Part shown: positions 3,734-56,603 of the stretch, one piece after another
Position numbering within the stretch: the stretch's first letter is position 1
Layout: each line of letters opens with the position of its first letter
Source of the DNA: Jeotgalibacillus aurantiacus
Lineage (GTDB): Bacteria > Bacillota > Bacilli > Bacillales > Jeotgalibacillaceae
Assembly: GCF_020595125.1 (NCBI RefSeq)
Contig: NZ_JACNMS010000007.1
Coordinates: 1-64,000, forward strand
Length of the DNA stretch: 64,000 bases
Direction: 5' to 3'
Made by a program: the position numbers and the translations under genes
The notes under the pieces: generated by a model
What the model saw: only the letters and a program-made list of their open reading frames with translations
Databases searched by the model: none
What the model was told of the DNA's origin: nothing

Positions 3734-3970
3734 GTGCCGGGCACATCCGGAGACTCCTGTGGCGGAAAGGGTCAGGTGAAACCGACTGGGCGAAGCTCAG
3801 GCGGGTTCACCGCCCGGCCTTGGAAAAGCGGAGGCGACTCGTCCAGCCCCGACAAGCATAAGGCGAAGATGAAAAGAGGGCTGACCTTTGCCCTCGTTCA
3901 GCTTTGACTTATGACCTCGAGGTGCTAGTCGCCGCAGCTAGACAAGGAAAACGAAGGAATGAACCGGCAC
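3734..3970 (+). repeat. Long palindromic element, composite A+B form (copy 1)
   Basis: About 237 bp. Left end GTGCCGGGCACATCC, right end GGAATGAACCGGCAC followed by GGTTTT. The outer module A has CTCCTGTGGC and a GGTTCACCGCCCGGCC segment. The nested module B runs from GGCGACTCGTCCAGCCCC to GCTAGTCGCCG. This copy is the most diverged: its terminal stem has mismatches and its A core differs (CCGACTGGGCGAAGCTCAGG). It fills the pgi-yugN spacer. A 66-codon ORF crosses it and is not a gene. Confidence 0.85.
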
Positions 3971-3986
3971 GGTTTTATAGCTTACA

Positions 3987-5336
3987 TTATTTCAAACGTT
4001 TCTCCAGCTCAGCTTTCTTCTCTTCAAAACCAGGCTTACCAAGAAGCGCAAACATATTGACTTTGTAAGCTTCAACTCCCGGCTGATCGAATGGATTTAC
4101 GCCAAGCAGATAACCGCTCATCGCACATGCTTTTTCAAAGAAATACACAAGGTAACCAAAATTGTAGGCATCCATTTCATTGATTTCCACAATCAGGTTC
4201 GGTACGCCCCCGTCATTATGCGCAAGCAATGTTCCCTGGAATGCTTTATTGTTTACAAAATCAACCGTCTCACCAGCCAGATAGTTCAGGCCGTCAAGAT
4301 CGCTGTCTGCTTCTTCAATGGTTAACTCATGACGAGGCTTCGCAACTTTTACAACGGTTTCGAACAGATCACGTCTGCCTTCCTGAACGTACTGTCCAAG
4401 AGAGTGCAGGTCTGTTGAGAAGTTGGCTGATGCAGGGAAAATTCCTTTCAGGTCCTTCCCTTCACTTTCGCCAAACAGCTGCTTCCACCACTCATTGAAA
4501 TATTGGAGACCCGGCTCATAGTTAATGAGCATCTCAATTGTTTTTCCTTTGTTGTAAAGGATATTACGGATTGCCGCGTACTGATAAGCACCGTTCTCAG
4601 AAAGCTCGGAAGAACTGTATTCTTCACGTGCATCTGCAGCACCTTTCATCATCGCTTCGATATCGATGCCGGCTGCTGCAATTGGCAGAAGACCTACTGC
4701 AGTCAGGACAGAGTAACGTCCACCCACATCATCAGGTACTACAAATGTTTCAAAGCCTTCTTCAGAAGCTAATGTTTTCAGTGCGCCTTTTGCTTTATCC
4801 GTTGTTGCATAAATGCGTGACTTCGCTTCTTCTTTTCCGTACTTTTCTTCAAGCAGCTTTCTGAAGATACGGAAGGCGATCGCAGGTTCTGTCGTTGTTC
4901 CTGATTTTGAAATGACGTTAATGGAGAAATCCTTGCCTTCAAGCAGGTCCATCAGATCTCTCATATAAGTGGAGCTGATATTGTTTCCAACAAACAGCAC
5001 CTGTGGAGATTTACGCTGCTTTTTAGACAGTGCATTGTAAAAGCTGTGGTTCAGCATTTCAAGTGCAGCACGCGCTCCAAGGTATGAACCGCCGATTCCA
5101 ACCACTAAAAGAACATCAGAGTCATTGCGGATTTTTTCAGCAGACTTTTGAATGCGGGCAAATTCTTCTTTATCATAATCAACTGGAAGATCAATCCATC
5201 CTAAAAAGTCACTTCCTGCACCCGTACCTTCATGAAGGGTGTGGTGAGCCTGTTTCACTGTATCCTGTAAATACGTTAATTCATGTTCGCCGAAAAAATC
5301 CAGCGCGTTTGAGTAATCAAAACGAATTGAAGTCAT
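3987..5336 (-). CDS. pgi: Glucose-6-phosphate isomerase
   Basis: 449 residues, full length for the bacillar enzyme. It interconverts glucose 6-phosphate and fructose 6-phosphate in glycolysis. Seen: the sugar-phosphate binding [14 protein letters not shown] near residue 80, [10 protein letters not shown] near residue 145 and a conserved C-terminal segment containing GVEAYKVNM. The ATG follows GGAGGATAAACGAT. In B. subtilis the pgi gene (yugL) lies in the same neighbourhood with yugN, yugO and yugJK. Transcribed alone on the minus strand; palindromic elements lie on both sides. Confidence 0.97.
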
Positions 5337-5464
5337 ATCGTTTATCCTCCGTTTTTTGTAGTTATCTGTTTACACTTTATATGATGTTGTTTTGATTATC
5401 AAGAAAGGTCCTGTATGTAAACGGATACAATTGAAAATCATCAATATTGATTGGTTTTGAAACC

Positions 5465-5704
5465 GTGCCAGGTCATCCCTTCGCTTTCCTTTGTCTAGCT
5501 CCGGCGACTAGCCCCTCGAGGTCATAAGTCAAAGCTGAACGAGGGTATAAGGCAACCCTCTTTTCATCTTCGCCTTATGCTTGTCGGGGCTGGACGAGTC
5601 GCCTCCGCTTTTCCGCGGCCGCGCGGTGAGCCAGCTAATGCTCCGCATTACGCTGTCTCACCTGTCGCTTTTCCGCCGCAGGAGTCTACGGAATGACCTG
5701 GCAC
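5465..5704 (-). repeat. Long palindromic element, composite A+B form (copy 2)
   Basis: About 240 bp, reverse orientation (begins AAACCGTGCC, ends GGCACTC). The terminal stem is GTGCCAGGTCATCCC against GGAATGACCTGGCAC: the pair that is G-C in copies 4 and 6 is A-T here, still complementary. Module B is nested between TTTGTCTAGCTCCGGCGACTA and GGACGAGTCGCCTCCGC. Lies between pgi and the alcohol dehydrogenase. Confidence 0.88.
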
Positions 5705-5810
5705 TCTTGATTTAAATTTTTTTCACTACTTTTTATAAATCAGTCAAAAACACAAATTGCTTTAGACATGATAAAATCATTACTTATTTAAAAAATTTCT
5801 ACACACACAA

Positions 5811-5848
5811 AAAGAGGGTATCACTTAAAAAGTGAAATACCCTCTTTC
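5811..5848 (-). terminator. Terminator downstream of the alcohol dehydrogenase
   Basis: Long stem AAAGAGGGTATCACTT paired with AAGTGAAATACCCTCTTT, flanked by A and T runs on both sides. Confidence 0.85.
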
Positions 5849-5902
5849 TTAAAACACACGGTGAGATTTTCTATCTTCACCAGCTTAATCATTACGTTGG
5901 TT

Positions 5903-7066
5903 TTATAGTGATGCTGTCAGAATCTGAACAACGTCATCTTTGTTCAGCTTTTTGAAGTTACCGAATTCCCCGTTTATCATTGCTTTGTCAGCCATGACGT
6001 CGATTTTGTCATCTCCGATTTCGTAATCAGCAAGTGTTGATGGTGCACCGATTTCAGTCCAGAACTGACGCAGACGCTCGATCCCTTCTTCACCGATCTG
6101 ACGGTCAGATTTACCTTCAGGGTCAACGCCGAATACACGAACTGCCATTTGAGCAAAACGCGCTTCGTTAACTTCAAGGTTGTGCTTCATCCAGTTCGGG
6201 AACAGGATCGCAAGGCCCCCGGCATGAGGAATATCATACACAGCAGATACCGCATGCTCAATGTTATGAGATGCCCAGTCTCCTCTGTAGCCCATCTGAA
6301 GCATTCCATTCAGTGCAAGTGTACCACTGTAAAGGATCGTTTCACGCAGCTCGTAATTTTCAAGGTCATTAACAAGCTTTGGTGCTGTTTCAATGACTGT
6401 ACGAAGTACACCCTCGATCAGCTGATCCTGCACAGGTGTATTTTTTGTGTTGTGGTAATATTGCTCGAACAAGTGGGACATCATATCCACAATCCCGTAA
6501 ATCGTCTGATCCTGTGGTACAGTAAATGTATTTTGAGGATCAAGAATAGAGAATTTCGGGAATGTTACAGGGCTTCCCCAGCCGTATTTTTCCTGTGTTT
6601 CGGCATTCGTAATAACGGATCCTGCATTCATTTCAGAACCAGTTGCCGCAAGCGTTAAGACCGTACCAAATGGCAGTGCTTCTTTAGCGAACGCTTTTTT
6701 CGTCACAAGATCCCACGCTTCTCCATCATACTTAGCACCGGCAGCAATCAGCTTCGTGCAGTCAATAACACTTCCGCCTCCTACCGCTAAAATGAATTCA
6801 ATTCCTTCTTCTTTACAAATCTTGATTCCTTTTTCAGCTGTCGTTAAGCGCGGGTTTGGTTCAACGCCTGATAATTCATGAACCTCAGCCCCAATTTCCT
6901 TAAGCAGGCCAGTAACCTGATCATATAATCCGTTTCTCTTAATGCTTCCTCCACCATAAACGAGTAGCACTTTATTTCCGTATTGCGGAACCTGTTCTTT
7001 TAATTGCTCCACCTGGTCTTTACCAAAGATCAGTTTTGTCGGGTTATAAAACGTAAATGTTTCCAT
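5903..7066 (-). CDS. yugJ: Iron-containing alcohol dehydrogenase, NADH-dependent butanol dehydrogenase type (YugJ/YugK)
   Basis: 387 residues. Group III iron-dependent alcohol dehydrogenase of the BdhA/YqhD type: NAD(P)-binding [16 protein letters not shown] near residue 38, cofactor loop [13 protein letters not shown] near 93, LAATGSEMN near 140, and metal-binding histidines in [21 protein letters not shown] and DIPHAGG. Probably reduces aldehydes at the expense of NAD(P)H. B. subtilis has a yugJ-yugK pair here and this window one copy, so J versus K is not resolved. ATG at 7066 is preferred over the TTG just before it because AGGAGG lies 8 nt upstream. Confidence 0.9.
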
Positions 7067-7237
7067 CAATTCCGCCTCCTAAAACATTTGTGCAAACAGT
7101 ATGACTGTTCGTCACATTTCCTTTTTCCATCCAATATTATCATCCATTCATACGATGAATGCAAAGAAGATGCTCGCGTATATTCTTACCCGCTCTGGAT
7201 AAACTACAAACGACCCTGATAAAAAGGAGGCGTTAAA

Positions 7238-7477
7238 ATGAGTGCCATTCAGCGAATTGCATTAGTGTTGACGATTATCGGTGCTTTAAACTGGGGACTT
7301 ATCGGATTCTTCCAATTTGATGCAGTAGCGGCCCTTTTCGGGGGACAGGACTCAGCTATTTCACGGGTTATTTACGGCCTGGTCGGAATCGCCGGTCTGA
7401 TCAACCTTGGCCTTCTGTTCAAAACGGATGATGAACGTGTGATCCGTACAGAACGCGAACCGGAACCTGTAAGATAA
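7238..7477 (+). CDS. yuzA: DUF378 small membrane protein (YuzA type)
   Basis: 79 residues with two membrane helices. The DUF378 pattern ALNWGLIGFFQFDAVAALFG is plain, with a charged tail (TEREPEPVR). Function unknown. AAGGAGG precedes the ATG by 8 nt, and a strong terminator follows. In B. subtilis yuzA also lies beside yugJ/yugK. Confidence 0.88.
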   Translation: MSAIQRIALVLTIIGALNWGLIGFFQFDAVAALFGGQDSAISRVIYGLVGIAGLINLGLLFKTDDERVIRTEREPEPVR

Positions 7478-7500
7478 TCAGTCAGTCACACTGCACAAAA

Positions 7501-7537
7501 AAACACCTCAAAATCGAAATCGATTTTGAGGTGTTTT
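7501..7537 (+). terminator. Terminator after yuzA
   Basis: Sixteen-bp perfect stem AAACACCTCAAAATCG/CGATTTTGAGGTGTTT with AAAT loop, A/T runs at both ends. Confidence 0.92.
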
Positions 7538-7551
7538 GAATTGTTGAAGAC

Positions 7552-7870
7552 AGTCCACCGCATACGCCGCTGAACGCTCGCCTCCGCTTTTCTTTATCCA
7601 GCTCCGTCGCCTAGCCCCTCGAGGTCATAAGTCAAAGCTGAACGAGGGCGAAGGTCAGCCCTCTTTTCATCTTCGCCTTAAGCTTGTCGGGGCTGAGCAA
7701 GGCGCCTCCGCTTTTCTTATGTCCAGCTCCGGCTCGCAACGGCTAGTGCGCTTCCCTCAGCTCATTTCGATAAGTCAACATCAGCTCACTTCGTTCGCTG
7801 TGTTTCCTTTATCTTAATCGCTTCAGTCCACCGCATACGCCGCTGAACGCTCGCCTCCGCTTTTCTTTAT
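7552..7870. repeat. Scrambled repeat block: free-standing module B plus a duplicated 47-bp segment
   Basis: A B module in reverse orientation (GTCGCCTAGCCCCTCGAGGTC ... GCTTGTCGGGGCTGAGCAAGGCGCC, about 7608-7706) without the outer A module. It is flanked by CGCCTCCGCTTTTCTT on both sides. A 46-47 bp segment starting CAGTCCACCGCATACGCC and ending GCTTTTCTTTAT occurs at 7552-7598 and again at 7824-7870. The second copy runs into the stop codon of the glutamate dehydrogenase gene. Between them are unrelated short inverted fragments (CAGCTCATTTCG, CAGCTCACTTCGTTCGCTG). Confidence 0.85.
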
Positions 7871-9111
7871 ACCCAGCCTCTGAATCGGCTGGCTTCGGCT
7901 GATTTTCTTACGCCGACCATGTAGGCTGCAAGGCGCATGTTGACGCGTCTGCTTTGGGCGAGGTCGTATACCTGGTTGAAGGAGTCAACGAGTTTCTTTT
8001 CGAGCTTTTCGTTCACTTCTTCTTCAGTCCAGTAGTAACCCTGGTTGTTTTGTACCCATTCGAAGTAGGATACGGTTACACCGCCGGCACTTGCCAGAAC
8101 GTCAGGTACAAGCAGGACTCCGCGCTCGTTTAGGCGGTTTGTTGCTTCGATGGTTGTTGGTCCATTTGCTGCTTCTACAATGATGCTTGCTTTGATGTTA
8201 TCAACGTTTTGAGACGTGATCTGGTTAGATACGGCTGCAGGAACGAGAATATCACATTCAATTTCAAGCAGTTCGTTGTTTGTCAGCGTGTTTTCAAACA
8301 GTGTTGTGACGGTTCCAAAGCTGTCGCGGCGGTCAAGAAGATAGTCAATATCAAGACCGTCCGGATCATGAATGGCGCCGTGTGCATCTGAAATCGCAAT
8401 GACTTTTGCGCCTGCATCATGCATGAATTTCGCGAGGAAGCTTCCTGCATTACCAAACCCCTGCACAACAACACGCGCGCCTTTAATATCAATTCCGCGT
8501 TTTTTAGCAGCCTGCTCAATACAGATGGTTACACCCTGGGCAGTCGCTTTTTCGCGCCCCTGTGATCCACCAAGTACGATCGGCTTCCCTGTGATAAATC
8601 CAGGGTTGTTAAATTCATCAATACGGCTGTATTCATCCATCATCCAAGCCATAATCTGAGAGTTTGTATACACATCAGGTGCAGGAATGTCCTTTGTAGG
8701 TCCTACAATCTGACTGATCGCGCGCACGTAGGCACGGCTCAGGCGCTCAAGCTCTCCCATAGACATCGTTCTCGGATCACAAATGATACCGCCTTTTCCT
8801 CCACCATACGGAAGGTCAACGATTCCACATTTTAATGTCATCCACATTGAAAGTGCTTTTACTTCTTCTTCATCCACATCCGGATGAAATCGCACCCCAC
8901 CTTTAGTCGGTCCGACAGAATCGTTGTGCTGTGCACGGTAACCCGTGAAAACACGTGTGCTTCCGTCGTCCATTCTGACAGGCATACGTACAGTCAGAAG
9001 ACGCATCGGTTCTTTCATTAATTCGTAAACAGCGTCATCATACCCCATTTTAGTCAGTGCTTCGTGAATAACCTCTTGCGTAGACGTAAAGAGATTCAAA
9101 TTTTCTGCCAT
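7867..9111 (-). CDS. NAD-specific glutamate dehydrogenase (catabolic, RocG/GudB family)
   Basis: 414 residues. It oxidatively deaminates glutamate to 2-oxoglutarate, the last step of arginine/ornithine/proline breakdown. Seen: substrate-binding PTKGGVRFHP near residue 85, catalytic lysine segment LPYGGGKGG near 115, GPTKDIPAPDVYT near 150 and the Rossmann motif VVQGFGNAGSFLAKF near 225. It lies downstream of rocA and rocD on the same strand, which favours a RocG role, but gudB cannot be excluded. The stop codon lies inside a duplicated repeat, so the last codons and 3' UTR are repeat-derived or were invaded. Confidence 0.95.
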   Translation of the reverse strand: MAENLNLFTSTQEVIHEALTKMGYDDAVYELMKEPMRLLTVRMPVRMDDGSTRVFTGYRAQHNDSVGPTKGGVRFHPDVDEEEVKALSMWMTLKCGIVDLPYGGGKGGIICDPRTMSMGELERLSRAYVRAISQIVGPTKDIPAPDVYTNSQIMAWMMDEYSRIDEFNNPGFITGKPIVLGGSQGREKATAQGVTICIEQAAKKRGIDIKGARVVVQGFGNAGSFLAKFMHDAGAKVIAISDAHGAIHDPDGLDIDYLLDRRDSFGTVTTLFENTLTNNELLEIECDILVPAAVSNQITSQNVDNIKASIIVEAANGPTTIEATNRLNERGVLLVPDVLASAGGVTVSYFEWVQNNQGYYWTEEEVNEKLEKKLVDSFNQVYDLAQSRRVNMRLAAYMVGVRKSAEASRFRGWV

Positions 9112-9202
9112 GATTATTGTTCGCCTCTTTTATTTCAATTAGTGTGAATCGGCATAATTGTAACATAACCCAACTCATTAGACGATGATTTTAAGAAGAA
9201 AG

Positions 9203-10399
9203 TTAGGAAAGAACAGCCGTGATTTTTTCGATCGCCCAATCCAGTTCTTCTTTAGAGATCACAAGTGGCGGTGCAAAGCGGATAACAGTCTCATGCGTCT
9301 CTTTGCAGAGCAGTCCCTGCTGCTTTAATTCCTCACAGTATTTACGTGCAGGCTCATTCAATTCCATCCCGATAAACAGTCCGCTTCCACGTACTTCCTT
9401 AATAACCGGGTTATCAATTTTACGAAGAGCTTCCATAAAGTAATTTCCAAGCTCCAGTGAACGATCTGCAAGATTCTCCTCACGCAGGACATTCAGTGAT
9501 GCGATAGATACAGCACACGCCATTGGATTTCCGCCAAATGTCGAGCCGTGTGATCCCGGATTAAATACGCCAAGTACTTCTTTATCCGCAACAACACAAG
9601 AAATCGGGAATACCCCGCCTCCAAGTGCTTTTCCGAGAATGTACATGTCAGGATCAACATCTTCCCATTCGCAGGCAAACATTTTTCCTGAACGGCAAAG
9701 GCCTGCCTGGATTTCGTCTGCAATAAATAAAACGTTGTGCTCTTTACACAGCTCACGCGCTGCTTTCAGGAAACCTTTTGGCGGAAATACAATTCCAGCT
9801 TCTCCCTGGATCGGCTCAATTAAAAAGGCTGCTGTGTTTGGTGTAATCGCTTCTTTTAAAGCATCAAGATCACCATATGGTACAAGCTTGATTCCTGGAA
9901 GCATCGGACCGAATCCGCGCTGGTACTCTGCTTCTGATGAAAGGGAAACGGCTGTCATCGTCCGGCCATGGAAATTACCGTGGCAGGCAATGATTTCTGC
10001 ACGATCCTTTTCTACACCCTTGACTTCATATGCCCAGCGTCTTGCTGTTTTAACAGCTGTTTCCACCGCTTCTGCTCCGGTATTCATTGGAAGTGCCATT
10101 TCTTTTCCTGACAATTCACAGATGAGTTCATACCATGGTGCAAGCTGATCATTATGGAATGCGCGGGATGTAAGCGTCACTTTGTCCGCCTGATCCTTCA
10201 GCGCCTGGATGATTTTCGGGTGTCTGTGCCCCTGGTTAACAGCCGAGTAGGCACTCAGCATATCCATATATTTATTGCCTTCCGGGTCCTTTACCCAGAC
10301 GCCTTCCGCCTCTGAGATGACGATTGGCAGCGGATGATAATTGTTTGCGCCGAAGCGTTCTGTTTTTTCAATAATTGACGTTGATGTAGATGTCACCAT
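9203..10399 (-). CDS. rocD: Ornithine aminotransferase
   Basis: 398 residues, class III PLP aminotransferase. It converts ornithine and 2-oxoglutarate to glutamate semialdehyde and glutamate. Seen: [21 protein letters not shown]-site [11 protein letters not shown] and [15 protein letters not shown], catalytic lysine in [18 protein letters not shown] at 10399 is chosen because AAAGGAG lies 8 nt upstream; the in-frame GTG at 10408 has no site. It sits between rocA and glutamate dehydrogenase, 91 nt from the latter. Confidence 0.95.
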
Positions 10400-10464
10400 G
10401 TTGCACACTCCTTTTGTTGTTCTTTACTCATTATATAACAAAGCCATTCTTTCCTGAATATGAG

Positions 10465-10545
10465 AAAAACCGGCTGGAAGAGAGTAAAAAGGCAGTTTCC
10501 CTTTTACGGGATCGCTCCCGCATCGTCGTCTCTTGCCGGCCGGCA
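10465..10545 (-). terminator. Branched hairpin between rocA and rocD, possible terminator
   Basis: On the minus strand GCCGGCAAGAGA pairs with TCTCTTCCAGCCGG and a TTTTT run follows. Between the arms are two smaller hairpins (GCGGGAGCGATCCCGT and AGGGAAACTGCCT), giving a multi-branch structure. It would separate rocA from rocD transcription, or act as a partial terminator. Confidence 0.6.
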
Positions 10546-10552
10546 TCATCCA

Positions 10553-22183: not shown

Positions 22184-22425
22184 GTGCCGGGTCATTCCGG
22201 AGACTCCTGCGGCAGTGAAGCGACAAGTGAGACAGCGTAGTGCGTAGCACTAGCTGGCTCACCGCGCGGCCACAGAAAAGTGGAGGCGACTCGTCCAGCC
22301 CCGACAAGCATAAGGCGAAGATGAAAAGAGGGCTGCCCTTTGCCCTCGTTCATCTTTGACTTATGACCTCGAGGGGCTAGTCGCCGCAGCTAGACACAAA
22401 GGAAAGCGCAGGAATGACCCGGCAC
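22184..22425 (+). repeat. Long palindromic element, composite A+B form (copy 4)
   Basis: About 242 bp with perfect 15-bp terminal inverted repeats GTGCCGGGTCATTCC/GGAATGACCCGGCAC, then GGTTTTT. Module A has GACTCCTGCGGC, GCGACAAGTGAGAC and GCTGGCTCACCGCGCGGCC. Module B is nested within the GGAAA/GGAAAGCG junction. It occupies the spacer between patB and a small membrane protein gene; 21986-22183 holds nothing recognisable. Confidence 0.92.
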
Positions 22426-29337: not shown

Positions 29338-29579
29338 GTGCCTGGCCATTCCTTCGCTTTCCATTGTCTAGCTGCGGCGACTAGCCCCTCGAGGTCATAA
29401 GTCAAAGATGAACGAGGACGAAGGTCAGTCCTCTTTTCATCTTCGCCTTATGCTTGTCGGGGCTGGACGAGTCGCCTCCGCGCTTTTCCGCGGCCGCGCG
29501 GTGAGCCAGCTAGTGCTCCGCACTACGCTGTCTCACCTGTCGCTTCACTGCCGCAGGAGTCTACGGAATGACCAGGCAC
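29338..29579 (-). repeat. Long palindromic element, composite A+B form (copy 5)
   Basis: About 242 bp, reverse orientation. Terminal stem GTGCCTGGCCATTCC/GGAATGACCAGGCAC: CCTGG pairs with CCAGG, a compensated version of CCGGG/CCCGG, with one G-T pair. Module B nested as in copy 2, with an extra CGC at the right junction. The 68-codon ORF inside is not a gene. Confidence 0.9.
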
Positions 29580-43258: not shown

Positions 43259-43320
43259 GTGCCGTGTCATTTCTTCGCTTTACTTTGTCTAGCTGAGGCG
43301 ACTACGGAATGACCAGGCAC
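43259..43320 (-). repeat. Mini element: internally deleted palindromic element (copy 7)
   Basis: 62 bp: GTGCCGTGTCATTTCTTCGC, TTTGTCTAGCT, then GGCGACTACGGAATGACCAGGCAC. It keeps one outer end, the junction into module B up to GGCGACTA, and jumps straight to the other outer end (CTACGGAATGACC). Everything between is missing; CTA/CTAC is shared at the junction. Confidence 0.8.
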
Positions 43321-44307: not shown

Positions 44308-44420
44308 GGACCGGCCACACCCTGCGCTTTCCGTGGCCGGGCGGTGAACCCGCCTGCGCTTCGCGCCGTCGGTTTCACCTGTCCCTTTCCGCCACAGGAG
44401 TCTCCGGGTGTGGCCGGTCC
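44308..44420 (-). repeat. Palindromic element, A-only form (copy 8)
   Basis: 113 bp with perfect 15-bp ends GGACCGGCCACACCC/GGGTGTGGCCGGTCC, a sequence quite different from the GTGCCGGG type but equally complementary. The core is reversed: GGGCGGTGAACCCGCC, GGTTTCACCTGTC, GCCACAGGAGTCTCC. No module B. Confidence 0.88.
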
Positions 44421-44554: not shown

Positions 44555-44677
44555 CTAACGACAGAAACACAGCGGCTATTCACATTTTCATCGCTCCTAT
44601 CAACATTTCTCGTCAGGATAGCGACATTAAGATCCAACCTAAGAATGCAATCAACAGATTTAATCCTGCTAACAACA
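44555..44677 (-). repeat. 21-nt phased nonamer array (reverse orientation)
   Basis: CTAACGACA 44555, CTATTCACA 44576, CTATCAACA 44597, ATAGCGACA 44618; then CAATCAACA 44648 and CTAACAACA 44669. Steps are 21, 21, 21, 30, 21. This is the reverse complement of the TGTTGATAG word. The step of 30 also occurs in the 13704 array. Confidence 0.75.
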
Positions 44678-48016: not shown

Positions 48017-48059
48017 AGTAAAACCCTATTCGGATTTTGGATTTGGATAGGGTTTTACT
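48017..48059 (+). terminator. Terminator of the SDR gene
   Basis: AGTAAAACCCTAT/ATAGGGTTTTACT stem with a 17-nt loop that itself can pair weakly. Confidence 0.85.
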
Positions 48060-48070: not shown

Positions 48071-48310
48071 GTGCCGGGTCATTCCTTCGCTTTCCTTTGT
48101 CTAGCTCCGGCGACTAGCCCCTCGAGGTCATAAGTCAAAGCTGAACGAGGGTATAAGGCAACCCTCTTTTCATCTTCGCCTTATGCTTGTCGGGGCTGGA
48201 CGAGTCGCCTCCGCTTTTCCAAGGCCGCGCGGTGAGCCAGCTAATGCTCCGCATTACGCTGTCTCACCTGTCGCTTCTCTGCCGCAGGAGTCTACGGAAT
48301 GACCCGGCAC
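48071..48310 (-). repeat. Long palindromic element, composite A+B form (copy 6)
   Basis: 240 bp, reverse orientation, perfect ends GTGCCGGGTCATTCC/GGAATGACCCGGCAC. Module B is nearly identical to that of copy 2 (including GGGTATAAGGCAACCCTC), so these two copies are close relatives. Confidence 0.92.
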
Positions 48311-48450
48311 TAATTATGTAAATTCATAAGTAGTTCATTTTAAGTCGGACTGAAAGTATTTTAGAATGCCATAAATAATAAATTTCATTTATTAATAAGC
48401 AGGTTCCAACAAATGATATGATCATTCATTAGACTAATGATATTCAAAAG

Positions 48451-48483
48451 AAAAACCCATCCTCAGCAAGGATAGGGTTTTTG
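48451..48483 (-). terminator. Terminator of yutM
   Basis: AAAAACCCATCCT ... AGGATAGGGTTTTT imperfect stem. Confidence 0.8.
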
Positions 48484-49758: not shown

Positions 49759-49796
49759 ATCCTTCTCTTTCATGATTCCGGAGGAGGATTTTTTTA
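49759..49796 (+). terminator. Terminator-like hairpin overlapping a ribosome binding site
   Basis: AATCCT ... AGGATT arms and a seven-T run, with GGAGGAGG in the 3' arm region; an ATG follows the T-run at once (see the short ORF at 49796). Confidence 0.55.
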
Positions 49797-49867: not shown

Positions 49868-49872
49868 TGCTA

Positions 49873-49923
49873 GTATCAACAACTTGATAATAGCTATCAA
49901 CACCATTTGGGAGTCTATCAACA
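49873..49923 (-). repeat. 21-nt phased nonamer array (3 units, reverse orientation)
   Basis: GTATCAACA 49873, CTATCAACA 49894 and CTATCAACA 49915, exactly 21 nt apart. Confidence 0.7.
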
Positions 49924-50040
49924 TAAAAATAAAGACTTAATGGTTTATTCCATAACCTATACACTACTGCGAACTGAAGATAATTCCAATGATGTTTTAT
50001 TTATCTCTCTCCTAATATAAAGAGGTTATACATATTTAGA

Positions 50041-50155
50041 GGGCTGGACTCACCCGAAGACTCCTGTGGCAGAGAAGCGACAGGTGAGACAACGTAGCGC
50101 GAAGCGCAAGTTGGCTCACCGCGCGGCCGCGGAAAGCGAAGGGTGAGTCCAGCCC
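50041..50155 (+). repeat. Palindromic element, A-only form (copy 9)
   Basis: 115 bp, perfect 15-bp ends GGGCTGGACTCACCC/GGGTGAGTCCAGCCC. Core: GACTCCTGTGGC, GAAGCGACAGGTGAGACAA, CGTAGCGCGAAGCGCAAG, TTGGCTCACCGCGCGGCCGC, GGAAAGCGAAGG. No module B. Confidence 0.92.
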
Positions 50156-50205
50156 GGCTTCAAATTAAAAACGGACCTTCATCAGGCCCGTTCATCAAAA
50201 CGCAT

Positions 50206-50442
50206 TTAAAACATCGGATTCTCTTCCAAATACGTATAAATCTCATCCACCAGCTCTTTTGGCGAATCAGCCTCCACAATATCCCCGTTCACCAGTGCAA
50301 AGTGCGACGCCGCACAAATTCCGCAATAACCGAGACACCCATACTCGATCACATCCAGATTCGGATCCCGCTCAAGCGCCTCCAGTGCCTCCTGAGAACC
50401 ACTTGCAAGATTACTGATACAAAATTCTATTATTGGTTTCAT
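50206..50442 (-). CDS. yuzB: DUF1450 family protein (YuzB)
   Basis: 78 residues; four conserved cysteines ([30 protein letters not shown]), in the arrangement of a thioredoxin-like or Fe-S binding small protein. Function unknown. ATG at 50442 follows AGAGGTG by 6 nt and gives the same length as remembered for B. subtilis YuzB. Divergent from yutJ. Confidence 0.9.
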
Positions 50443-50686
50443 TATATTCACCTCTACCTGTAGTCAAATGTAACTTTTTTCTCAAAAAACGTCAACGATT
50501 GGTGCTTGTCCATTCTTCTGTCATTTTGACAAGTTTGTGAAAGAATTCTCTTATAATGATTGTACATTGTTCTCTATTCCGCTATACTTTTTAGTGAATG
50601 AAAACGTTATGATAAAACGTAATGTGCGAATTAATCATCCTATTGAAAGTGCTTACTATACGTTTATTGCAAAGAGAGGGCTATTC

Positions 50687-51754
50687 ATGAAACACTTAGT
50701 ATTATTGGGTGGAGGCTATGGGAACATGCGGGTTTTACTCCGTCTGTTACCTGATAAGCTTCCAGAAGACGTAACGATTACATTAATCGACCGGACACCT
50801 TATCACTGTCTGAAAACAGAATATTATGCGCTTGCTGCGGGAACCGTTTCAGATACTGAAATCCGGGTTGGCTTTCCAGAGCATGAGCGCCTTCATTTAA
50901 AATACGGAAAAGTAACTGAGATCAACACAGTTGACAGTAAGGTTATTCTTGGAGATGGATCTGAGGTTGAATACGATGATCTGATAGTCGGACTTGGCTG
51001 TGAAGATAAGTATCACAACGTTCCGGGAGCAGATGAATTCACGTACAGTATTCAATCGATCCAGCAATCAAGAGCTACCTATGAAAAGCTCTCCAACCTT
51101 CCATCCGGATCAGTGGTTGGTGTTGTTGGAGCAGGACTGAGTGGAATTGAACTGGCAAGTGAATTGCGCGAAAGCCGTTCAGATCTGACCATTAAACTGT
51201 TCGATCGTGGTGAACGGATTCTGCCCGCGTTCCCTCAGCGACTGAGTAACTATGTACAAAAATGGTTTGATGCCAACAATGTAGAAGTTGTCAGCAAATC
51301 CAACATCACGAAAGTAGAACCAACCATGCTGCACAATCACGAAGAATCGATTCCTGTTGATGTGTGTGTATGGACAGCCGGTATCCAGCCTGTTGAAGTA
51401 GTACGTAACCTGCCTGGTGAAAAAGATTCATCGAATCGCGTCGTATTATCCCAATACCACAACCTTCCTGACAATGAACACGTCTATGTTGTAGGAGACT
51501 GCGCAAGCCTTCCGTTTGCCCCAAGTGCTCAGCTTGCGGAAGAACAAGCTGAACAAATTGTAGACGTTCTTCTCACACGCTGGAAAGGCGGCACATTGCC
51601 AGCAGAAATGCCAAAGATCAAACTCAAAGGCTTTATGGGATCTCTCGGAAAGAAACAAGGCTTTGCCTATCTTGCCGACCGGACCATCACAGGCCGCATC
51701 GCCCGCCTCTTAAAATCAGGCGTGCTGTGGATGTATAAATATCATAATGGTTAA
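50687..51754 (+). CDS. yutJ: Type II NADH dehydrogenase-like flavoprotein (YutJ)
   Basis: 355 residues, related to YumB but more distant: HLVLLGGGYGNMRVLLRLL (FAD), VVGVVGAGLSGIELASEL (NADH), VYVVGDCASLPF (FAD). Oxidises NADH, acceptor unknown. The open frame starts 50 codons earlier, but ATG at 50687 has AAGAGAGGG and yields the B. subtilis length. Confidence 0.9.
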   Translation: MKHLVLLGGGYGNMRVLLRLLPDKLPEDVTITLIDRTPYHCLKTEYYALAAGTVSDTEIRVGFPEHERLHLKYGKVTEINTVDSKVILGDGSEVEYDDLIVGLGCEDKYHNVPGADEFTYSIQSIQQSRATYEKLSNLPSGSVVGVVGAGLSGIELASELRESRSDLTIKLFDRGERILPAFPQRLSNYVQKWFDANNVEVVSKSNITKVEPTMLHNHEESIPVDVCVWTAGIQPVEVVRNLPGEKDSSNRVVLSQYHNLPDNEHVYVVGDCASLPFAPSAQLAEEQAEQIVDVLLTRWKGGTLPAEMPKIKLKGFMGSLGKKQGFAYLADRTITGRIARLLKSGVLWMYKYHNG

Positions 51755-51761
51755 TTATAAC

Positions 51762-51794
51762 AAAACACGCTCACTCCTTTTGAGCGTGTTTTTA
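51762..51794. terminator. Terminator after yutJ
   Basis: AAAACACGCTCA ... TGAGCGTGTTTTT stem. Confidence 0.9.
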
Positions 51795-51803
51795 TTTGTC
51801 TCT

Positions 51804-51874
51804 AAGCTCACGATATTTTTAATAAGCTCATCAAATAGTCACTGAAAGCGTAGGATGAGTCCGGACCGGTTTTA
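51804..51874. repeat. Relics: two TTCGTGAG-type units and half a palindromic element
   Basis: AAGCTCACGA (51804) and AAGCTCATCA (51824) are two reverse-orientation units of the GTGAG family, 20 nt apart. At 51843-51870, GAAAGCGTAGGATGAGTCCGG is the right end of an A element lacking its left half. Confidence 0.55.
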
Positions 51875-52028
51875 AAAATCACTTCCCGTAAAAGTTTTTA
51901 TCATTAATAGAGAATAAATATACAAAATGAGTTTTATTTTAACAAACTGAGGGAATTAAAATTAAGTATATTGACCTAAAATAAAAATAAAATTAAAACT
52001 ATATACCCTAAATAGGATGGTGAAAAAG

Positions 52029-52343
52029 ATGAATTATACTGAGCCTGAGTTAAAAGAAGCGCTTATCCGTTTTGACAAACTGTTACGAACGTGTCCCGAT
52101 CGAAACGAGAATGTCCTTGCTTACAAACAGTTTATCACCTCATTCCTGCGTGTAAAAACGAAGAATCTGACCCTCCCGACCTCAGAAATTATGTCTGTAA
52201 TTCAGCATGAAAGGCCTTCAACCTTCTATCTGCTGAAAAAAAGTATGAGTTATGATCCTACCTTTGAGCTATTAACGAATATTGATTTGAATTATGAAAT
52301 GGCAAGTCTCCATTTATCTGCAATCAAAGAGCACCTTTCCTGA
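52029..52343 (+). CDS. Hypothetical protein, 104 residues
   Basis: Soluble, probably all-helical (ELKEALIRFDKLLRTCPDRNENV; FITSFLRVKTKNLTLPTSEIM). GGTGA at normal spacing before ATG at 52029, preferred over ATG at 52017. I do not recognise a family. It sits between yutJ and yuzD, where B. subtilis has no equivalent that I recall. Confidence 0.65.
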   Translation: MNYTEPELKEALIRFDKLLRTCPDRNENVLAYKQFITSFLRVKTKNLTLPTSEIMSVIQHERPSTFYLLKKSMSYDPTFELLTNIDLNYEMASLHLSAIKEHLS

Positions 52344-52431
52344 ACATCGCACATTCACAGCCGACTATTTCTTAATAAATACTGGAAAGCCAGTATACTG
52401 AAACCATCTTAATTTACAGGTGGTGGTGAAT

Positions 52432-52599
52432 ATGTCTTTACTTCCTTTCCATGAACGATATAACCTGGTTGAGGTTCCAGAGGATTATGAAAATACGAGT
52501 GATGACCATATCGTCATGCGCGATGAGCATAATACGTGTTATTTATGCGAAAAGAAAGACGTGGATATTTTAAAGGGACTGAATTTTAAAGAGCTTTAA
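52432..52599 (+). CDS. Hypothetical small protein, 55 residues, with CxxC
   Basis: MSLLPFHERYNLVEVPED... with CYLCEKKDVDIL. The single CxxC suggests metal or redox binding, perhaps as a dimer. GGTGGTGA precedes the ATG and a good terminator follows, so it is likely real. Not recognised. Confidence 0.65.
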   Translation: MSLLPFHERYNLVEVPEDYENTSDDHIVMRDEHNTCYLCEKKDVDILKGLNFKEL

Positions 52600-52602
52600 T
52601 CA

Positions 52603-52641
52603 AAAAATCCTTACCCGCCGGTCTGCGGGTAAGGATTTTTT
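52603..52641. terminator. Bidirectional terminator before yuzD
   Basis: AAAAATCCTTACCCGC-N6-GCGGGTAAGGATTTTTT between convergent genes. Confidence 0.94.
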
Positions 52642-52978
52642 ATTTCACTTGTGGAGCCGCTTCAAATCCATATTTCTCAAGTTCTTTATAGACCGCTTTC
52701 AACCTTGGATTTCCTTCTCCAACAATCTCATCCTCCACCAGTACAACAGGGTAGAATAAATCCTCTTCCCAGACTTTTTGGACAAAGGCTGCTTTTTTTG
52801 GATCCTCATGCTCTGTATTTAAATCGACGTAATCCATTTTAAATGTTTGTCCCGGGAATTTTCTCCCGATCGCGGCTTCAAGCCACTCATAAGTTTCTTT
52901 TGATGACGGTGCGCCAACGCAGCTTGCGCAGATGGTTTCAGCACCATATACAGTGATCGTAACGGGTTGTTGTGACAT
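52640..52978 (-). CDS. yuzD: YuzD family thioredoxin-like protein (DUF1462)
   Basis: 112 residues. CASC motif near residue 17 (YGAETICASCVGAPSSKETYEWLE) in the thioredoxin active-site position, then FYPVVLVEDEIVGEGNP with the cis-Pro-like segment. Likely redox or Fe-S related; neighbour of NifU-like yutI as in B. subtilis. ATG start, AAAGGGCTG upstream. Confidence 0.88.
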   Translation of the reverse strand: MSQQPVTITVYGAETICASCVGAPSSKETYEWLEAAIGRKFPGQTFKMDYVDLNTEHEDPKKAAFVQKVWEEDLFYPVVLVEDEIVGEGNPRLKAVYKELEKYGFEAAPQVK

Positions 52979-53080
52979 TCAAATCAGCCCTTTCATTTCA
53001 TTGAGAATCAATTGATAAAGATCAATGGATTTTTTTTGTTATCCTTATTATAATAGAAGACAGGAAGGGAGTCGATTCGA

Positions 53081-53317
53081 ATGACAGAAGTAGAAATGAA
53101 AGATTCAGTTCAAGAGGTACTTGATAAACTTCGTCCATTCCTTCTTCGTGATGGCGGGGACTGTGAACTCGTTGATGTGGAAGATGGAATCGTTAAATTG
53201 AGACTTCTTGGCGCATGTGGTACATGCCCAAGTTCAACGATCACGCTGAAGGCTGGTATTGAGCGTGCTCTATTAGAAGAAGTACCTGGCGTTGTAGAAG
53301 TAGAACAAGTATTTTAA
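53081..53317 (+). CDS. yutI: NifU C-terminal domain Fe-S scaffold (YutI/NfuA-like)
   Basis: 78 residues, just the NifU C-terminal domain: [20 protein letters not shown] and [20 protein letters not shown] with the cluster-binding CGTC. It assembles [4Fe-4S] clusters; with YutM and LipA in the same region it suits maturation of lipoyl synthase. GGAAGGGAG precedes the ATG. Confidence 0.94.
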
Positions 53318-53323
53318 TACACC

Positions 53324-53374
53324 GTGCCTGATCATTCCTGCGCTTTCAGTGAAATCGTGGAATTGATCGGGTAC
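53324..53374 (-). repeat. Mini/degenerate palindromic element (copy 12)
   Basis: 51 bp: GTGCCTGATCATTCC ... GGAATTGATCGGGTAC with a short interior CTGCGCTTTCAGTGAAATC. The ends are still largely complementary. Confidence 0.65.
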
Positions 53375-53397
53375 TTTTTAATTTTCACTGAAACTTA

Positions 53398-53436
53398 AAA
53401 AGGTGGTGAACCAATTTCCCGGTTCACCACCTTTTA
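53398..53436. terminator. Terminator between yutI and the 2-hydroxyacid dehydrogenase gene
   Basis: AAAGGTGGTGAACC-N8-GGTTCACCACCTTT stem. Confidence 0.92.
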
Positions 53437-54396
53437 TTATTTCACTTCAGTTAAAGCCTTTTTCCCCTGAAGCACTGCTGCAATGTTATCCGATGCAAGC
53501 TTCATCATCGTCAGGCGTGTTTCTCTGGAGGCGCTGCCGATATGCGGGATGGCGACTACATTTTTCATGCTGAGAAGCGGATGGTCAGCACTGATTGGTT
53601 CTTTTTCAAACACATCAAGTGCTGCTCCGGCAATTTCACCGGTTTGCAGTGCTTCGATCAACGCCTGTTCGTCCACTGTTGTACCACGGCCTGCATTAAC
53701 AAAAAACGCAGACTTCTTCATTAAGGCAAATTCCTTCTTACCCATCATCTGCTTTGTTTCTTCTGTAAAAGGAGCAAGCATCACAACATAATCAGATTCC
53801 TTCAGCAGTTCTTCAAGAGAAACGTGTTTAGCGTTAAATCGTTGTTCCGCCTCAGATTTTCTGGACCGCGTATGATAAAGCACATCCATATTAAATCCTT
53901 TGGCCCGTTGCGCGACGGCTTGTCCAATACTTCCCATTCCGATAATCCCGATCGTCTTATGATGAATATCAGTTCCCGCAAGCAGATAAGGGGACCATGA
54001 CGTCCACTTTCCCTGCTTTACATACTCAGCAGCCTCCGTGATTCTCCTGCCGACAGCCATGATCAGTGAAAATGTCAGATCCGCTGTTGTATCCGTCAGA
54101 ACATCAGGTGTATTCGTAACAATGACGCCTGCCTTTTTTGCAGCATCGAGATCGATGTTGTCATATCCGACTGCAAGGTTTGCCACTACTTCCAAATGTG
54201 GAGCCGCATCAAAAATCTCCTGATCAATTTTGTCAGATAACATCGTGAGAAGTGCATGACTGTCTTTTACCTGGTGAAGTAATTCATCTTTCGGTACAGC
54301 CGTATCTTCCTTGTTCCAAACCTGTACATCAAATCGCTCCTTTAATTGATCAATCACCTGATCATCAATTTTACGGGTAATATAAATCTTTTTCAT
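53437..54396 (-). CDS. D-2-hydroxyacid dehydrogenase (glyoxylate/hydroxypyruvate reductase type)
   Basis: 319 residues. NAD-binding GIIGMGSIGQAVAQRAKGF near residue 145, catalytic NAGRGTTVDEQAL with Arg, E in DVFEKEPI and the histidine of IPHIGSAS. It probably reduces glyoxylate or hydroxypyruvate. ATG at 54396 follows GAGGAGTG; GTG at 54405 overlaps it. 24 nt downstream of yutF, so probably cotranscribed with it. Confidence 0.92.
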   Translation of the reverse strand: MKKIYITRKIDDQVIDQLKERFDVQVWNKEDTAVPKDELLHQVKDSHALLTMLSDKIDQEIFDAAPHLEVVANLAVGYDNIDLDAAKKAGVIVTNTPDVLTDTTADLTFSLIMAVGRRITEAAEYVKQGKWTSWSPYLLAGTDIHHKTIGIIGMGSIGQAVAQRAKGFNMDVLYHTRSRKSEAEQRFNAKHVSLEELLKESDYVVMLAPFTEETKQMMGKKEFALMKKSAFFVNAGRGTTVDEQALIEALQTGEIAGAALDVFEKEPISADHPLLSMKNVVAIPHIGSASRETRLTMMKLASDNIAAVLQGKKALTEVK

Positions 54397-54419
54397 GTCA
54401 TACACTCCTCGCTGTTAAG

Positions 54420-55187
54420 TCAGATGATGTTCCATTCTGCTAATGAGTTGATTGAGTAAGTAGGCTGAAGTTCTTTCGTTTCCAGCAGGCTTTTAGGTGA
54501 AACGCCTGTATGAACCATCAATGTGTCCATGCCGGTATTGAAGCCTGCCTGAATGTCTGTATCATAATTGTCTCCCACCATCACGACTTCTTCTTTAGGC
54601 AGTCCAAGTACATGAAGTGCCTGTTCCATAATGACAGCTTCAGGCTTACCGATAAACATCGGTTCCGTTTGAGTAGAAACAGCAATCACCGAAGTCAGTG
54701 ATCCGTTACCTGGAAGGAGACCGCGTTCAGTCGGGATCGCAATATCTCCATTTGTAGAAATAAATTTCGCGCCGCCTCTGACAGCCAGGCAGCCGAGCGC
54801 CAGTTTTTCATACGTAATTTCCCGGTCAAGCCCGACTACAACGTAATCAGGATTTTCGTCTTTAATCGTCAAACCCTTGTCTGTCAGCGCTTGGCGAATA
54901 CCGTCTCCGCCAATCACATAGACAGATGCATCCGACTTTTCCCGGGAAATAACGGAGGCTGTAGCTAATGATGTCGTAAATACCTGCTCCGGCTCAGCGG
55001 GTACATCAAAACCTTTTAAGTGAGCTGCAACCTGCTCCTGTGTTTTTGAAGAATTATTCGTTACAAATAAATAAGGAATGCCTTTATCCTTCAATTTTTT
55101 CACAAAATCAACAGCTTCCGGAATCGCTTCCGTCCCTCTGTACATTGTTCCATCAAGATCAATTAAATATCCTTTATACTGCTTCAT
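54420..55187 (-). CDS. yutF: HAD-IIA sugar-phosphate phosphatase family protein (YutF, NagD-like)
   Basis: 255 residues. HAD motif I LIDLDGTMYRG, motif II VTNNSS, type IIA cap, motif III/IV MVGDNYDTDIQAGFNTGM. It hydrolyses small phosphate esters. GGAAG before the ATG. Confidence 0.93.
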   Translation of the reverse strand: MKQYKGYLIDLDGTMYRGTEAIPEAVDFVKKLKDKGIPYLFVTNNSSKTQEQVAAHLKGFDVPAEPEQVFTTSLATASVISREKSDASVYVIGGDGIRQALTDKGLTIKDENPDYVVVGLDREITYEKLALGCLAVRGGAKFISTNGDIAIPTERGLLPGNGSLTSVIAVSTQTEPMFIGKPEAVIMEQALHVLGLPKEEVVMVGDNYDTDIQAGFNTGMDTLMVHTGVSPKSLLETKELQPTYSINSLAEWNII

Positions 55188-55250
55188 TGTCTACTTCCTT
55201 TCAATCCATAAAAAAGAACCTATCCCAGTCGGAATAGAGCCCTTTTTAGC

Positions 55251-55688
55251 TTAATTTCTAAATGCTGAAACGGGGCCAAGCTCATTTGTCAGATAATCGC
55301 GTACAGCTGGTGCAAACGCCTGAAGTTCAGATAGATGATTTCTCAAGGTCTCCTCAAGGTGACTGTGTGACAGGGTTGTAAACTCCTGTACGAGCAGCTT
55401 CCTCAGCTGAATGACCTTTACAAGTGGAGGCTTCATGTCAGGTGTGATGACTTTCTCATCCTCTAAAATCTCAATAATATCCTCATAACTGCCCGGATCT
55501 CTCATAATAAACCCGTCAATCATCGAATTCCCAACATCAATGATGGATTCAATAATTACGTGGGTACAGCGCTCAAGCGCAAGCTCTGAAAGACGGGTCG
55601 ACCAGGATGTCTGTGCCTCAAAAAAAGCAATCTGTTCCTCCATATAAGAAAGCGTCGCATGAATCGTCTCGCGGTCAACAAAATACAT
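55251..55688 (-). CDS. yutE: DUF86/HepT-like protein (YutE)
   Basis: 145 residues, all-helical: DRETIHATLSYMEEQIAFFE, ALERCTHVIIESIIDVGNSM, VIQLRKLLVQEFTTLSHSHLEE. It is related to HepT toxins of minimal-nucleotidyltransferase pairs, but there is no MNT partner and the RNase R-x4-6-H motif is not evident, so probably a housekeeping homologue. ATG at 55688 is spaced from GGAG better than the GTG at 55697. Confidence 0.88.
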   Translation of the reverse strand: MYFVDRETIHATLSYMEEQIAFFEAQTSWSTRLSELALERCTHVIIESIIDVGNSMIDGFIMRDPGSYEDIIEILEDEKVITPDMKPPLVKVIQLRKLLVQEFTTLSHSHLEETLRNHLSELQAFAPAVRDYLTNELGPVSAFRN

Positions 55689-55808
55689 TTTTCTCACGCT
55701 CCATTTTACAACTTATACTCCTAGTGTACCATATAAAACGGCGAACTTTGGCATGCGGACTGTTAATCGGTATAATGGAAACAGAATTCTGCCACTGGAG
55801 GTTTTATT

Positions 55809-56078
55809 ATGAACGAACGTTTTTACCTTTATGATGATACAGAAGAAACCAAAACGCGATTTGTCAGCTTTATGGGCGAAAACCAGCGCTTTGATCTTGC
55901 CATTATGTATTCAGACCGCTACTACGGAAAAGCAGTCGTCTTTGATATTCAGGGAAGTCGATTCGCCATTCTGGGTCAGGACGACCTTGATGAACCCGGC
56001 TACCTCGAACATGCCTATCAGATCTCAGAAGAAGATGCATCAGAAATGCGCGACTTTCTCCAGGAAGTCATCCGCTGA
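55809..56078 (+). CDS. DUF3055 (SAV0927-like) cytosolic protein
   Basis: 89 residues, acidic, no membrane segment: YLYDDTEETKTRFVSFMGE and FAILGQDDLDEPGYLEHAY. Family assignment from memory; function unknown. ACTGGAGG precedes the ATG by 8-9 nt. The hairpin downstream contains the ribosome binding site of the next gene. Confidence 0.8.
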   Translation: MNERFYLYDDTEETKTRFVSFMGENQRFDLAIMYSDRYYGKAVVFDIQGSRFAILGQDDLDEPGYLEHAYQISEEDASEMRDFLQEVIR

Positions 56079-56090
56079 ATAAAAACACAC

Positions 56091-56126
56091 AACCTCCTCC
56101 ACACTAGATGCAGAGGAGGTTTTTAT
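56091..56126 (+). promoter_or_regulatory. Hairpin that both resembles a terminator and sequesters a ribosome binding site
   Basis: AACCTCCTC (56091-56099) pairs with GAGGAGGTT (56113-56121), then TTTATATG with the start codon at 56127. The GAGGAGG Shine-Dalgarno is wholly in the stem. Confidence 0.65.
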
Positions 56127-56354
56127 ATGAAACAATACAGCGACTTTTCAAACGTCGAAGTCCAGCGTGAATACCTGACCGTCGAAACACTGCCCGAAGG
56201 CCCATACGGCGCACCACGCGGCAAATATTCCATCGTCAAAAATAAAAGCGGCCCATGGCTACCCGGACAGCGCTACTACAGCGCCTTCAACTACGAAAAC
56301 AAAGGGCTCCACAAACACATACCACGCCTAGATCCCGGAGCTCATAAGCCTTAA
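56127..56354 (+). CDS. Hypothetical protein, 75 residues
   Basis: Basic, Tyr/Gly/Pro-rich, cytoplasmic (VQREYLTVETLPEGPYGAPR; GPWLPGQRYYSAFNYENKGLH). I think small conserved Bacillales proteins of this kind exist, but I do not recall a name. Ribosome binding site GAGGAGG lies in a hairpin stem (previous entry). Confidence 0.75.
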   Translation: MKQYSDFSNVEVQREYLTVETLPEGPYGAPRGKYSIVKNKSGPWLPGQRYYSAFNYENKGLHKHIPRLDPGAHKP

Positions 56355-56381
56355 ACCGGTAAATTTTGATCATAGATTAGA

Positions 56382-56436
56382 GGGCTCGAATCATCCGTAG
56401 ACTCCTGTGGCTGAAAGCGACAGGTGAGTCGAGCCC
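56382..56436 (+). repeat. Mini palindromic element (copy 10)
   Basis: 55 bp: GGGCTCGAATCATCC, GTAGACTCCTGTGGCTGAAAG, GCGACAGGTGAGTCGAGCCC. The left half is intact up to GCGACAGGTGAG and then joins the right end at GAGTCGAGCCC; the GGTGAG/GATGAG similarity suggests deletion by slippage. Confidence 0.85.
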
Positions 56437-56488
56437 GGTTTTTTACTCTCTATAAAAACAACAGGAATGAAGTTTTATATCACACGAA

Positions 56489-56603
56489 GGGCCGGACTCA
56501 TCCGTAGACTCCTGCGGCAGTGAAGCGACAGGTGAGACAGCGTAGTGCGTAGCACTAGCTGGCTCACCGCGCGGCCGCGGAAAGCGAAGGATGAGTCCGG
56601 CCC
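56489..56603 (+). repeat. Palindromic element, A-only form (copy 11)
   Basis: 115 bp, perfect 15-bp ends GGGCCGGACTCATCC/GGATGAGTCCGGCCC followed by GGTTTG. Core as in copy 9 with CGTAGTGCGTAGCACTAG in place of CGTAGCGCGAAGCGCAAG. Confidence 0.93.

Follow-up and report, generated by a model that had tools for sequence, protein, structure and literature searches.

A repeated folding element in the 64-kb window

The stretch analysed here (the window, 64,000 nt) comprises positions 1 to 64,000 of contig NZ_JACNMS010000007.1 of Jeotgalibacillus aurantiacus (assembly GCF_020595125.1). It carries several copies of an intergenic element of ∼115 nt, element A, in which a 15-bp terminal helix encloses a near-uniform core. 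The two arms of this helix covary between copies: terminal pairing, and not the sequence of the ends, is under selection as a structured nucleic acid. A single-strand fold, probably of RNA, is favoured over a cruciform, but is not proven.

By convention, the sense strand of the element is the one ending in GGTTTT. From 5′ to 3′ it consists of an A tract, a 15-nt arm (consensus about GKGCYGGNNNCATCC), the core, the complementary arm and GGTTTT. The core starts with GNAGACTCCTGYGGC and finishes with GCGGAAAGCGNA, and the 3′ end of the strand follows the pattern GGCNC-GGTTTT. Many copies have one internal cassette, module B (∼125 nt) or module C (∼150 nt), at a site between GGCC and GGAAAGCG; each module is bordered by GGAAA(A)GCGNAGG-like motifs. 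The sense strand is predicted to fold into a long rod, with z-scores of -8.1, -6.9 and -6.3 for three full copies. According to the first-pass annotation of the window, one end is consistently followed by GGTTTT. This holds as a consensus (G 85%, G 74%, T 72%, T 91%, T 79% and T 61% by position, in 136 copies of the genome), but not in every copy. Two unpaired purines (consensus GG) sit between the terminal helix and the T tract.

The window contains eight full-length copies, three shortened copies and one fragment. Element A with a B cassette was found at 3734-3970 (plus strand; B at ∼3820-3945), where 5 of the 15 terminal pairs are broken, at 22184-22425 (plus; B at ∼22272-22400) and 48071-48310 (minus), both with a 15/15 terminal helix, and at 5465-5704 and 29338-29579 (both minus), whose helices have 14 Watson-Crick pairs and one G.U pair. 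The copies without a cassette, at 44308-44420 (minus, with a variant core), 50041-50155 (plus) and 56489-56603 (plus, the type copy), all have 15/15 helices. The shortened copies are a truncated element that has lost its core at 43259-43320 (minus), with both arms present and partly mismatched, a truncated and decayed element at 53324-53374 (minus), and a core-deleted derivative at 56382-56436 (plus), which lost most of its core and retains the outer stem and GGTTTTTT. Thus, all eleven sites named in the first-pass annotation carry the element or a remnant of it; a 3′ fragment with the 3′ arm at 51841-51867 (plus) was absent from that list. Of the six ends quoted there as matching their own partners, four match perfectly, and those of the 5465 and 29338 copies have one mismatch each, which is G.U on the GGTTTT strand.

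The genome is 3.5 Mb long. A covariance model, R1, was built from 22 copies and matched at least 150 copies in it, with a worst E of 5.5e-9. These matches and the fold z-scores exclude a chance occurrence.

The terminal arms covary

Arms were placed by fixed core anchors, and not by complementarity. In this way 136 of the 150 model matches could be placed; ten lacked a recognisable anchor and four had odd spacing or weak anchors (the damaged 3734 copy is not among the 150). The terminal helix was 15/15 Watson-Crick in 84 of the 136 copies, a number that may overstate pairing, since the model ranking rewards paired arms. One non-Watson-Crick pair was present in 33 copies, two or three in 9, and four or more in 10. 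The 5′ arm came in 104 distinct versions. At arm positions 9 and 10 all four bases are widely used and still complementary, and a consensus is retained at the first arm position and at the inner positions 11-15.

The first-pass annotation had argued that compensated ends imply selection for pairing, and covariation above phylogenetic expectation had been set beforehand as the test that could refute it. We ran this test with our own script, which imitates R-scape: the tree was built from the arms themselves, and the inferred substitutions were reshuffled among columns. With 118 distinct arm pairs, 12 of the 15 terminal pairs covaried above this tree-preserving null (E<0.05), and 0 of 420 non-pairs did so. 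The three remaining terminal pairs are nearly invariant. Because the covariance model rewards paired arms, the test was repeated with copies collected blind to the helix. In this genome (67 copies from BLAST-selected loci, with the best 40 candidates per query, and from the window; 33 perfect helices, 62 distinct arm pairs), 7 of the 15 pairs were significant. In stretches of a near relative, G004 (55 copies; 34 perfect, 50 distinct), 10 of 15 were significant, and in both sets none of the 420 non-pairs. The argument from compensated ends was therefore upheld.

Arm pairing was also evaluated in 79 copies from named genomes. The mean pairing energy was -22.2 kcal/mol with the own partner and -13.0 kcal/mol with swapped partners. 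In 35 of the 79 copies none of the 40 swaps paired as well as the own partner, and in 58 at most two swaps did.

Cores and cassettes are exchanged between copies

Paralogous copies of the main core length differ at 39.7% of their arm sites and at 8.6% of their core sites, and in 60 pairs of copies whose cores diverge by no more than 2.5% the arms still differ at 32%. Since paralogues with near-identical cores differ so much in their arms, cores are homogenised, or arms are renewed when copies are born. The contrast between a uniform core and varied ends that had been noted from the window is real, but it comes in part from exchange of cores between copies by recombination, which leaves cores alike and ends unlike.

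Exchange was visible at orthologous loci of this genome (G000) and G004. For the rates, 28 of 56 orthologue pairs were retained, after removal of those with more than three differences in an arm, with one-sided flanks or with offsets above 5 nt; this filter leaves out chimeric and replaced elements. At 13 of the 28 loci, all with conserved arms, core length differs; a cassette makes the difference in nine, and the core type or a small indel in the other four. The copies at C4:259001 and C2:528879 agree with their orthologues in arms and near flanks but not in the core. The G004 orthologue of the 56489 copy has identical arms and a different core type, and that of the 48071 copy is an element without the cassette. 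Chimeras with non-matching arms, at C4:116556, C5:126835 and C2:809547, are the product of recombination through the core. Six double-sided arm changes were found at orthologues, all still paired, where ∼0.6 would be expected by chance (31 differences in 840 arm sites); three of the six lie at C6:109600, where the near flanks differ and the locus is less certain. At C4:150705 of G000 (locus L142) a single site has two adjacent elements, apparently through tandem duplication of the element together with ∼30 nt of flank; one unit has a different arm pair and core.

These data bear on a classical miniature inverted-repeat transposable element (MITE) moved by a DDE transposase, whose end differences would mark subfamilies of different transposases. 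Inverted ends and tandem or convergent sites fit such an element, as do some arms that recur across copies, e.g. GTGCCGGGTCATTCC. However, 104 distinct 5′ arms in 136 copies are not fixed, shared terminal inverted repeats, positions 9 and 10 use every base while staying complementary, and arms diverge between copies with almost the same core. We regard a MITE as highly improbable. The claim made from the window, that a transposon needs the same ends in every copy, holds against sequence-specific terminal repeats, but not against mobility, as sites have been gained and lost between species (see below).

Gene context and gained or lost sites

Gene context was read from naive open reading frame (ORF) calls. 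Of the 136 copies, 52 lie in convergent, 74 in tandem and 10 in divergent spacers, and between tandem genes 50 are in sense and 24 in antisense orientation. The window copies had been described as all intergenic; across the genome this is nearly so, but 4 of the 136 copies are overlapped by a larger naive ORF. A run of at least four Ts within the first 12 nt downstream was present in 59 of the 136 copies on the sense side and in 40 on the antisense side, against a background of ∼12%.

The elements could be bidirectional intrinsic terminators or transcription barriers of neighbouring genes, whose end helix is kept paired because it terminates transcription in cis. The T tract after the helix, the location of 126 of the 136 copies in tandem or convergent spacers, and core-deleted derivatives that keep the stem and the T run would all follow from this, and the preference for G.U over C.A described below resembles that of real terminators (PMC5381666, in the part available). 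Nevertheless, many copies lie beyond an existing terminator, which was predicted between the upstream gene and the sense copy in 22 of 52 convergent and 27 of 50 tandem spacers, and congeners that already have a terminator in the spacer have empty sites. Two unpaired purines separate the helix from the T tract, a terminator has no need of a conserved core, and in antisense contexts the G.U excess keeps the element's own sense (6:0, in model-selected copies and with small numbers). Termination as the selected function is unlikely.

Over longer times, sites have been gained or lost between species. In congeners (∼76% identity) the spacer of the 48071 copy is short, with a terminator alone, in six and longer in four. 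That of the 44308 copy is short, with a terminator alone, in the three congeners compared. For the 50041 copy, three congeners have a short spacer and two have an element-like insert in it. Elsewhere, congeners have the element in spacers that are empty in this genome. The comparison of empty and occupied spacers proposed in the first-pass annotation gave no clean empty site among 47 orthologous loci relative to G004 (loci at which G004 is more than 60 nt longer were outside the comparison). Congener spacers are too diverged for a target-site duplication to be read. Similar terminator-like hairpins (GGATAGGGTTTT) at ∼48018-48058 and 48450-48483 flank the 48071 insertion, where congeners have one terminator; the paired hairpins may reflect a target duplication.

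Distribution and candidate partners

At E ≤0.001 the element matched 44 of the 61 genomes of the order, this genome included. A pattern scan of named genomes yielded at least 118 stretches, with 80 loci listed; among the matches listed are Oceanobacillus, Sporosarcina, Neobacillus, Psychrobacillus, Virgibacillus, Halobacillus, Pontibacillus, Fictibacillus, Jeotgalibacillus and other genera, from whose names we infer that the order is Bacillales.

No Rfam family matched any element, either in the window and at 18 loci with relatives at the gathering score, or at three loci with E up to 1. Judged by titles and the starts of abstracts, the literature searched does not describe the family; subscription papers, among them the bcr1-bcr18 survey, were outside its scope. 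The accessible part of PMC2864571 holds no description of it, and an 11-nt core string retrieved only papers that are unrelated by title.

A phage or plasmid origin was rejected: the window copy had no match among plasmid or phage records, and the Peribacillus version of the element matched 15 of 72,556 plasmids and no phage. Two of these plasmids, L407 and L408, come from B. subtilis and Paenibacillus urinalis. On both, the element's relative lies downstream of gnd within a zwf-gnd-pgi block, with a small ORF on its other side, and on the P. urinalis plasmid a Tn3-family transposase adjoins it.

Of the candidate partners Y1 transposase, reverse transcriptase and TnpB, none holds up. A REP/RAYT partnership (repetitive extragenic palindromes and their associated tyrosine transposases) was not supported, as Y1_Tnp is absent from the element-bearing genomes G001, G005, G007, G017 and G024 and just 2 of 16 fetched Y1 loci have an element match. 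Reverse transcriptase was rejected because none was found in the element-bearing G003, G004, G005, G006, G008, G009 and G010, and TnpB because G000 and G004 have none. Among the 17 genomes that lack element matches, 11 have TnpB-type genes, against 10 of the 44 genomes with matches, a difference confounded by relatedness. The element as a sponge for CsrA, through GGA motifs, was also rejected: CsrA is present in 59 of the 61 genomes, and G045 has 15 element matches and no CsrA.

Strand asymmetry and the selected molecule

Selection for pairing, as the first-pass annotation put it, could act on RNA or on a cruciform. On the sense strand, G.U exceeded C.A by 26:3 (p = 1.5e-5) in the 126 model-selected copies whose helix has three or fewer non-Watson-Crick pairs, a set ranked by a model that itself favours G.U and paired arms; over all 136 copies the ratio was 40:10. 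The helix-blind set of this genome gave 16:1 (p = 0.0003) and 17:3 (p = 0.003) in two counts, and that of G004 gave 14:4 (p = 0.03) by one count. The lean towards G.U disfavours a duplex cruciform or template-switch copying, because both predict equal numbers of G.U and C.A. Mutation bias is not its source, because the rare core substitutions on the sense strand (29 G>A and 12 C>T; 93 copies, three core lengths) run the wrong way to create G.U. In addition, the sense duplex was more stable than the antisense duplex in 54 of 79 copies and less stable in 13.

Selection may act on neither single strand, if quasipalindrome (template-switch) correction keeps the arms matched or if the DNA cruciform itself is selected. 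Both mechanisms change the two arms together without strand preference, and the sets with a weak or absent G.U excess (5:3 in G004, and 10:5 or 15:14 in other species; see below) are what they predict. They do not account for the helix-blind excesses in this genome and G004, nor for the consensus kept at the first arm position and at positions 11-15, which is unlike a copied flank. We consider this explanation distinctly improbable.

A mobile element moved as single-stranded DNA (ssDNA), in the manner of IS200/IS605, RAYT or attC elements, would use the fold of one strand as the recombinase substrate. It would fit a strand-specific tolerance of wobbles, a structure conserved above end sequence, and cassettes at a fixed internal site. 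However, replication-strand bias is absent, with 74 copies leading and 62 lagging and 22:30 at convergent sites (strand inferred from GC skew), on which ground a link to ssDNA at replication was rejected; the distribution of Y1_Tnp and TnpB given above also argues against it. Movement as ssDNA seems improbable.

We put at about even chances the reading that the element belongs to a BOX-like Bacillales family in which selection acts on the fold of one strand, most probably in the form of RNA. Several observations weigh against it, beyond the ranking of the model-selected set. With a fixed register, G.U:C.A in G004 was 5:3, and 11:11 over all G004 copies; 79 copies from other species gave 10:5 (p = 0.30; 15:14 in a cruder count), and 32 further copies 4:2. 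Every count except the cruder one and that of all G004 copies leans towards G.U, but the excess reaches significance in this genome and in one of the G004 counts, and not in other species. The stability bias of the sense duplex may stem from purine-rich internal loops. G.T wobbles form in ssDNA too, so that ssDNA could show the same preference. Constraint is modest: between G000 and G004, orthologues selected for arm conservation differ at 3.7% of arm sites, 6.7% of flank sites and 2.1% of core sites. By our tally, the 19 single-sided arm changes at orthologues include six G.U and four C.A, three of the latter from one decayed copy. Column covariation in the 79-species alignment was significant for 0 of 14 predicted pairs and for three pairs outside the predicted structure; in this alignment several predicted pairs are invariant through the choice of pattern, and the arms are probably misregistered. 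There was no enrichment of a promoter of its own at the copies, as scored with an approximate sigma-A matrix, and predicted terminators already stand upstream of many copies, as described above. The strand asymmetry is thus supported, but not settled.

If one strand is indeed selected to fold, the sense strand, most probably as RNA, would form the ∼115-nt rod. Its terminal helix would need only to pair, while the core, the A tract before the helix and the GGTTTT after it would keep their sequence; the element would then work like a structural RNA with a clamp helix of free sequence. The terminal helices would drift through G.U intermediates and double changes, like terminator stems. The P1 helices of riboswitches drift in a similar way, through G.U intermediates and double changes. 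Recombination swaps cores between copies, and B and C cassettes are gained and lost at the one internal site. The helix and T tract would block read-through between neighbouring genes, and the past spread of the family would have relied on a mobilising function, perhaps now absent. A further version of the RNA reading is unlikely: an undescribed, order-wide structured-RNA family with the sense transcript as the unit of selection, SINE-like (short interspersed nuclear element) or protein-binding, with a clamp helix of free sequence, exchangeable RNA cassettes and a conserved core homogenised by recombination.

Small interspersed repeats of bacteria are commonly regarded as the debris of transposons. 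The more than 100 variants of a single helix in this genome amount to a mutational scan provided by nature, in which pairing is kept and end sequence is not, while recombination evens out the core.

Relation to known repeats

By analogy, and without implying membership, the closest in kind are the BOX and SPRITE repeats of Streptococcus pneumoniae. As far as the accessible text of PMC3049150 describes them, BOX elements are, like element A, small, interspersed and modular, with an inner module that is optional and varies in number; their terminal repeats pair in the predicted RNA, and current movement is slow. Against the plan boxA-(boxB)n-boxC, with terminal modules that pair, element A has inner cassettes and pairing ends, a possible likeness judged by description. 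Unlike BOX, the terminal helix here is hypervariable and yet covaries, and the host order differs; the words "covariation" and "compensatory" are absent from the part of PMC3049150 available. With SPRITE, as presented there, element A shares a terminator-like stem with a T-rich tract and enrichment near the 3′ ends of convergent genes, but SPRITE is an 18-bp duplex with its T-rich tract, whereas the rod of element A is ∼115 nt long and has a conserved core as well as cassettes.

Intrinsic terminators of B. cereus, in the section of PMC5381666 consulted, resemble the element in compensated stem changes, in G.U as the main intermediate and in a helix followed by a T tract. The 68 G.U and 8 A.C inferred intermediates given there are a different quantity from our G.U:C.A counts, in a similar proportion. 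Element A differs from such terminators in its conserved core and its cassettes, in its number of homologous copies (at least 150), many of them located past an existing terminator, and in the two unpaired purines ahead of the T tract. Bcr1 and Bhal-1 of Bacillus are interspersed folding repeats of 167 and 74 nt in the available portion of PMC2267715, likened here by description only; Bhal-1 may be related to element A. The same portion notes that Bhal-2 contains CRISPR (clustered regularly interspaced short palindromic repeats) repeats. The REP/RAYT palindromes are multi-copy and extragenic, as is element A, in what we could consult of PMC3733652; unlike them, the element is ∼115 nt long with variable ends, and no tie to a Y1 transposase was found.

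Other features of the window

Upstream of the copies, no shared motif was found beyond AT-rich words and pieces of the element. Upstream of the 50041 copy, TATC(A/G)ACA words occur at 49874, 49895 and 49916, with an exact spacing of 21 nt, and a similar word is found at 44598. A stand-alone B cassette, without element A, lies at 7581-7716 (minus strand). An exact 47-nt direct repeat, at 7551-7597 and 7824-7870, brackets this cassette and another stretch, and has the appearance of a separate composite repeat. Finally, a lysine riboswitch is located on the minus strand at 62113-62305, upstream of a 570-aa ORF.

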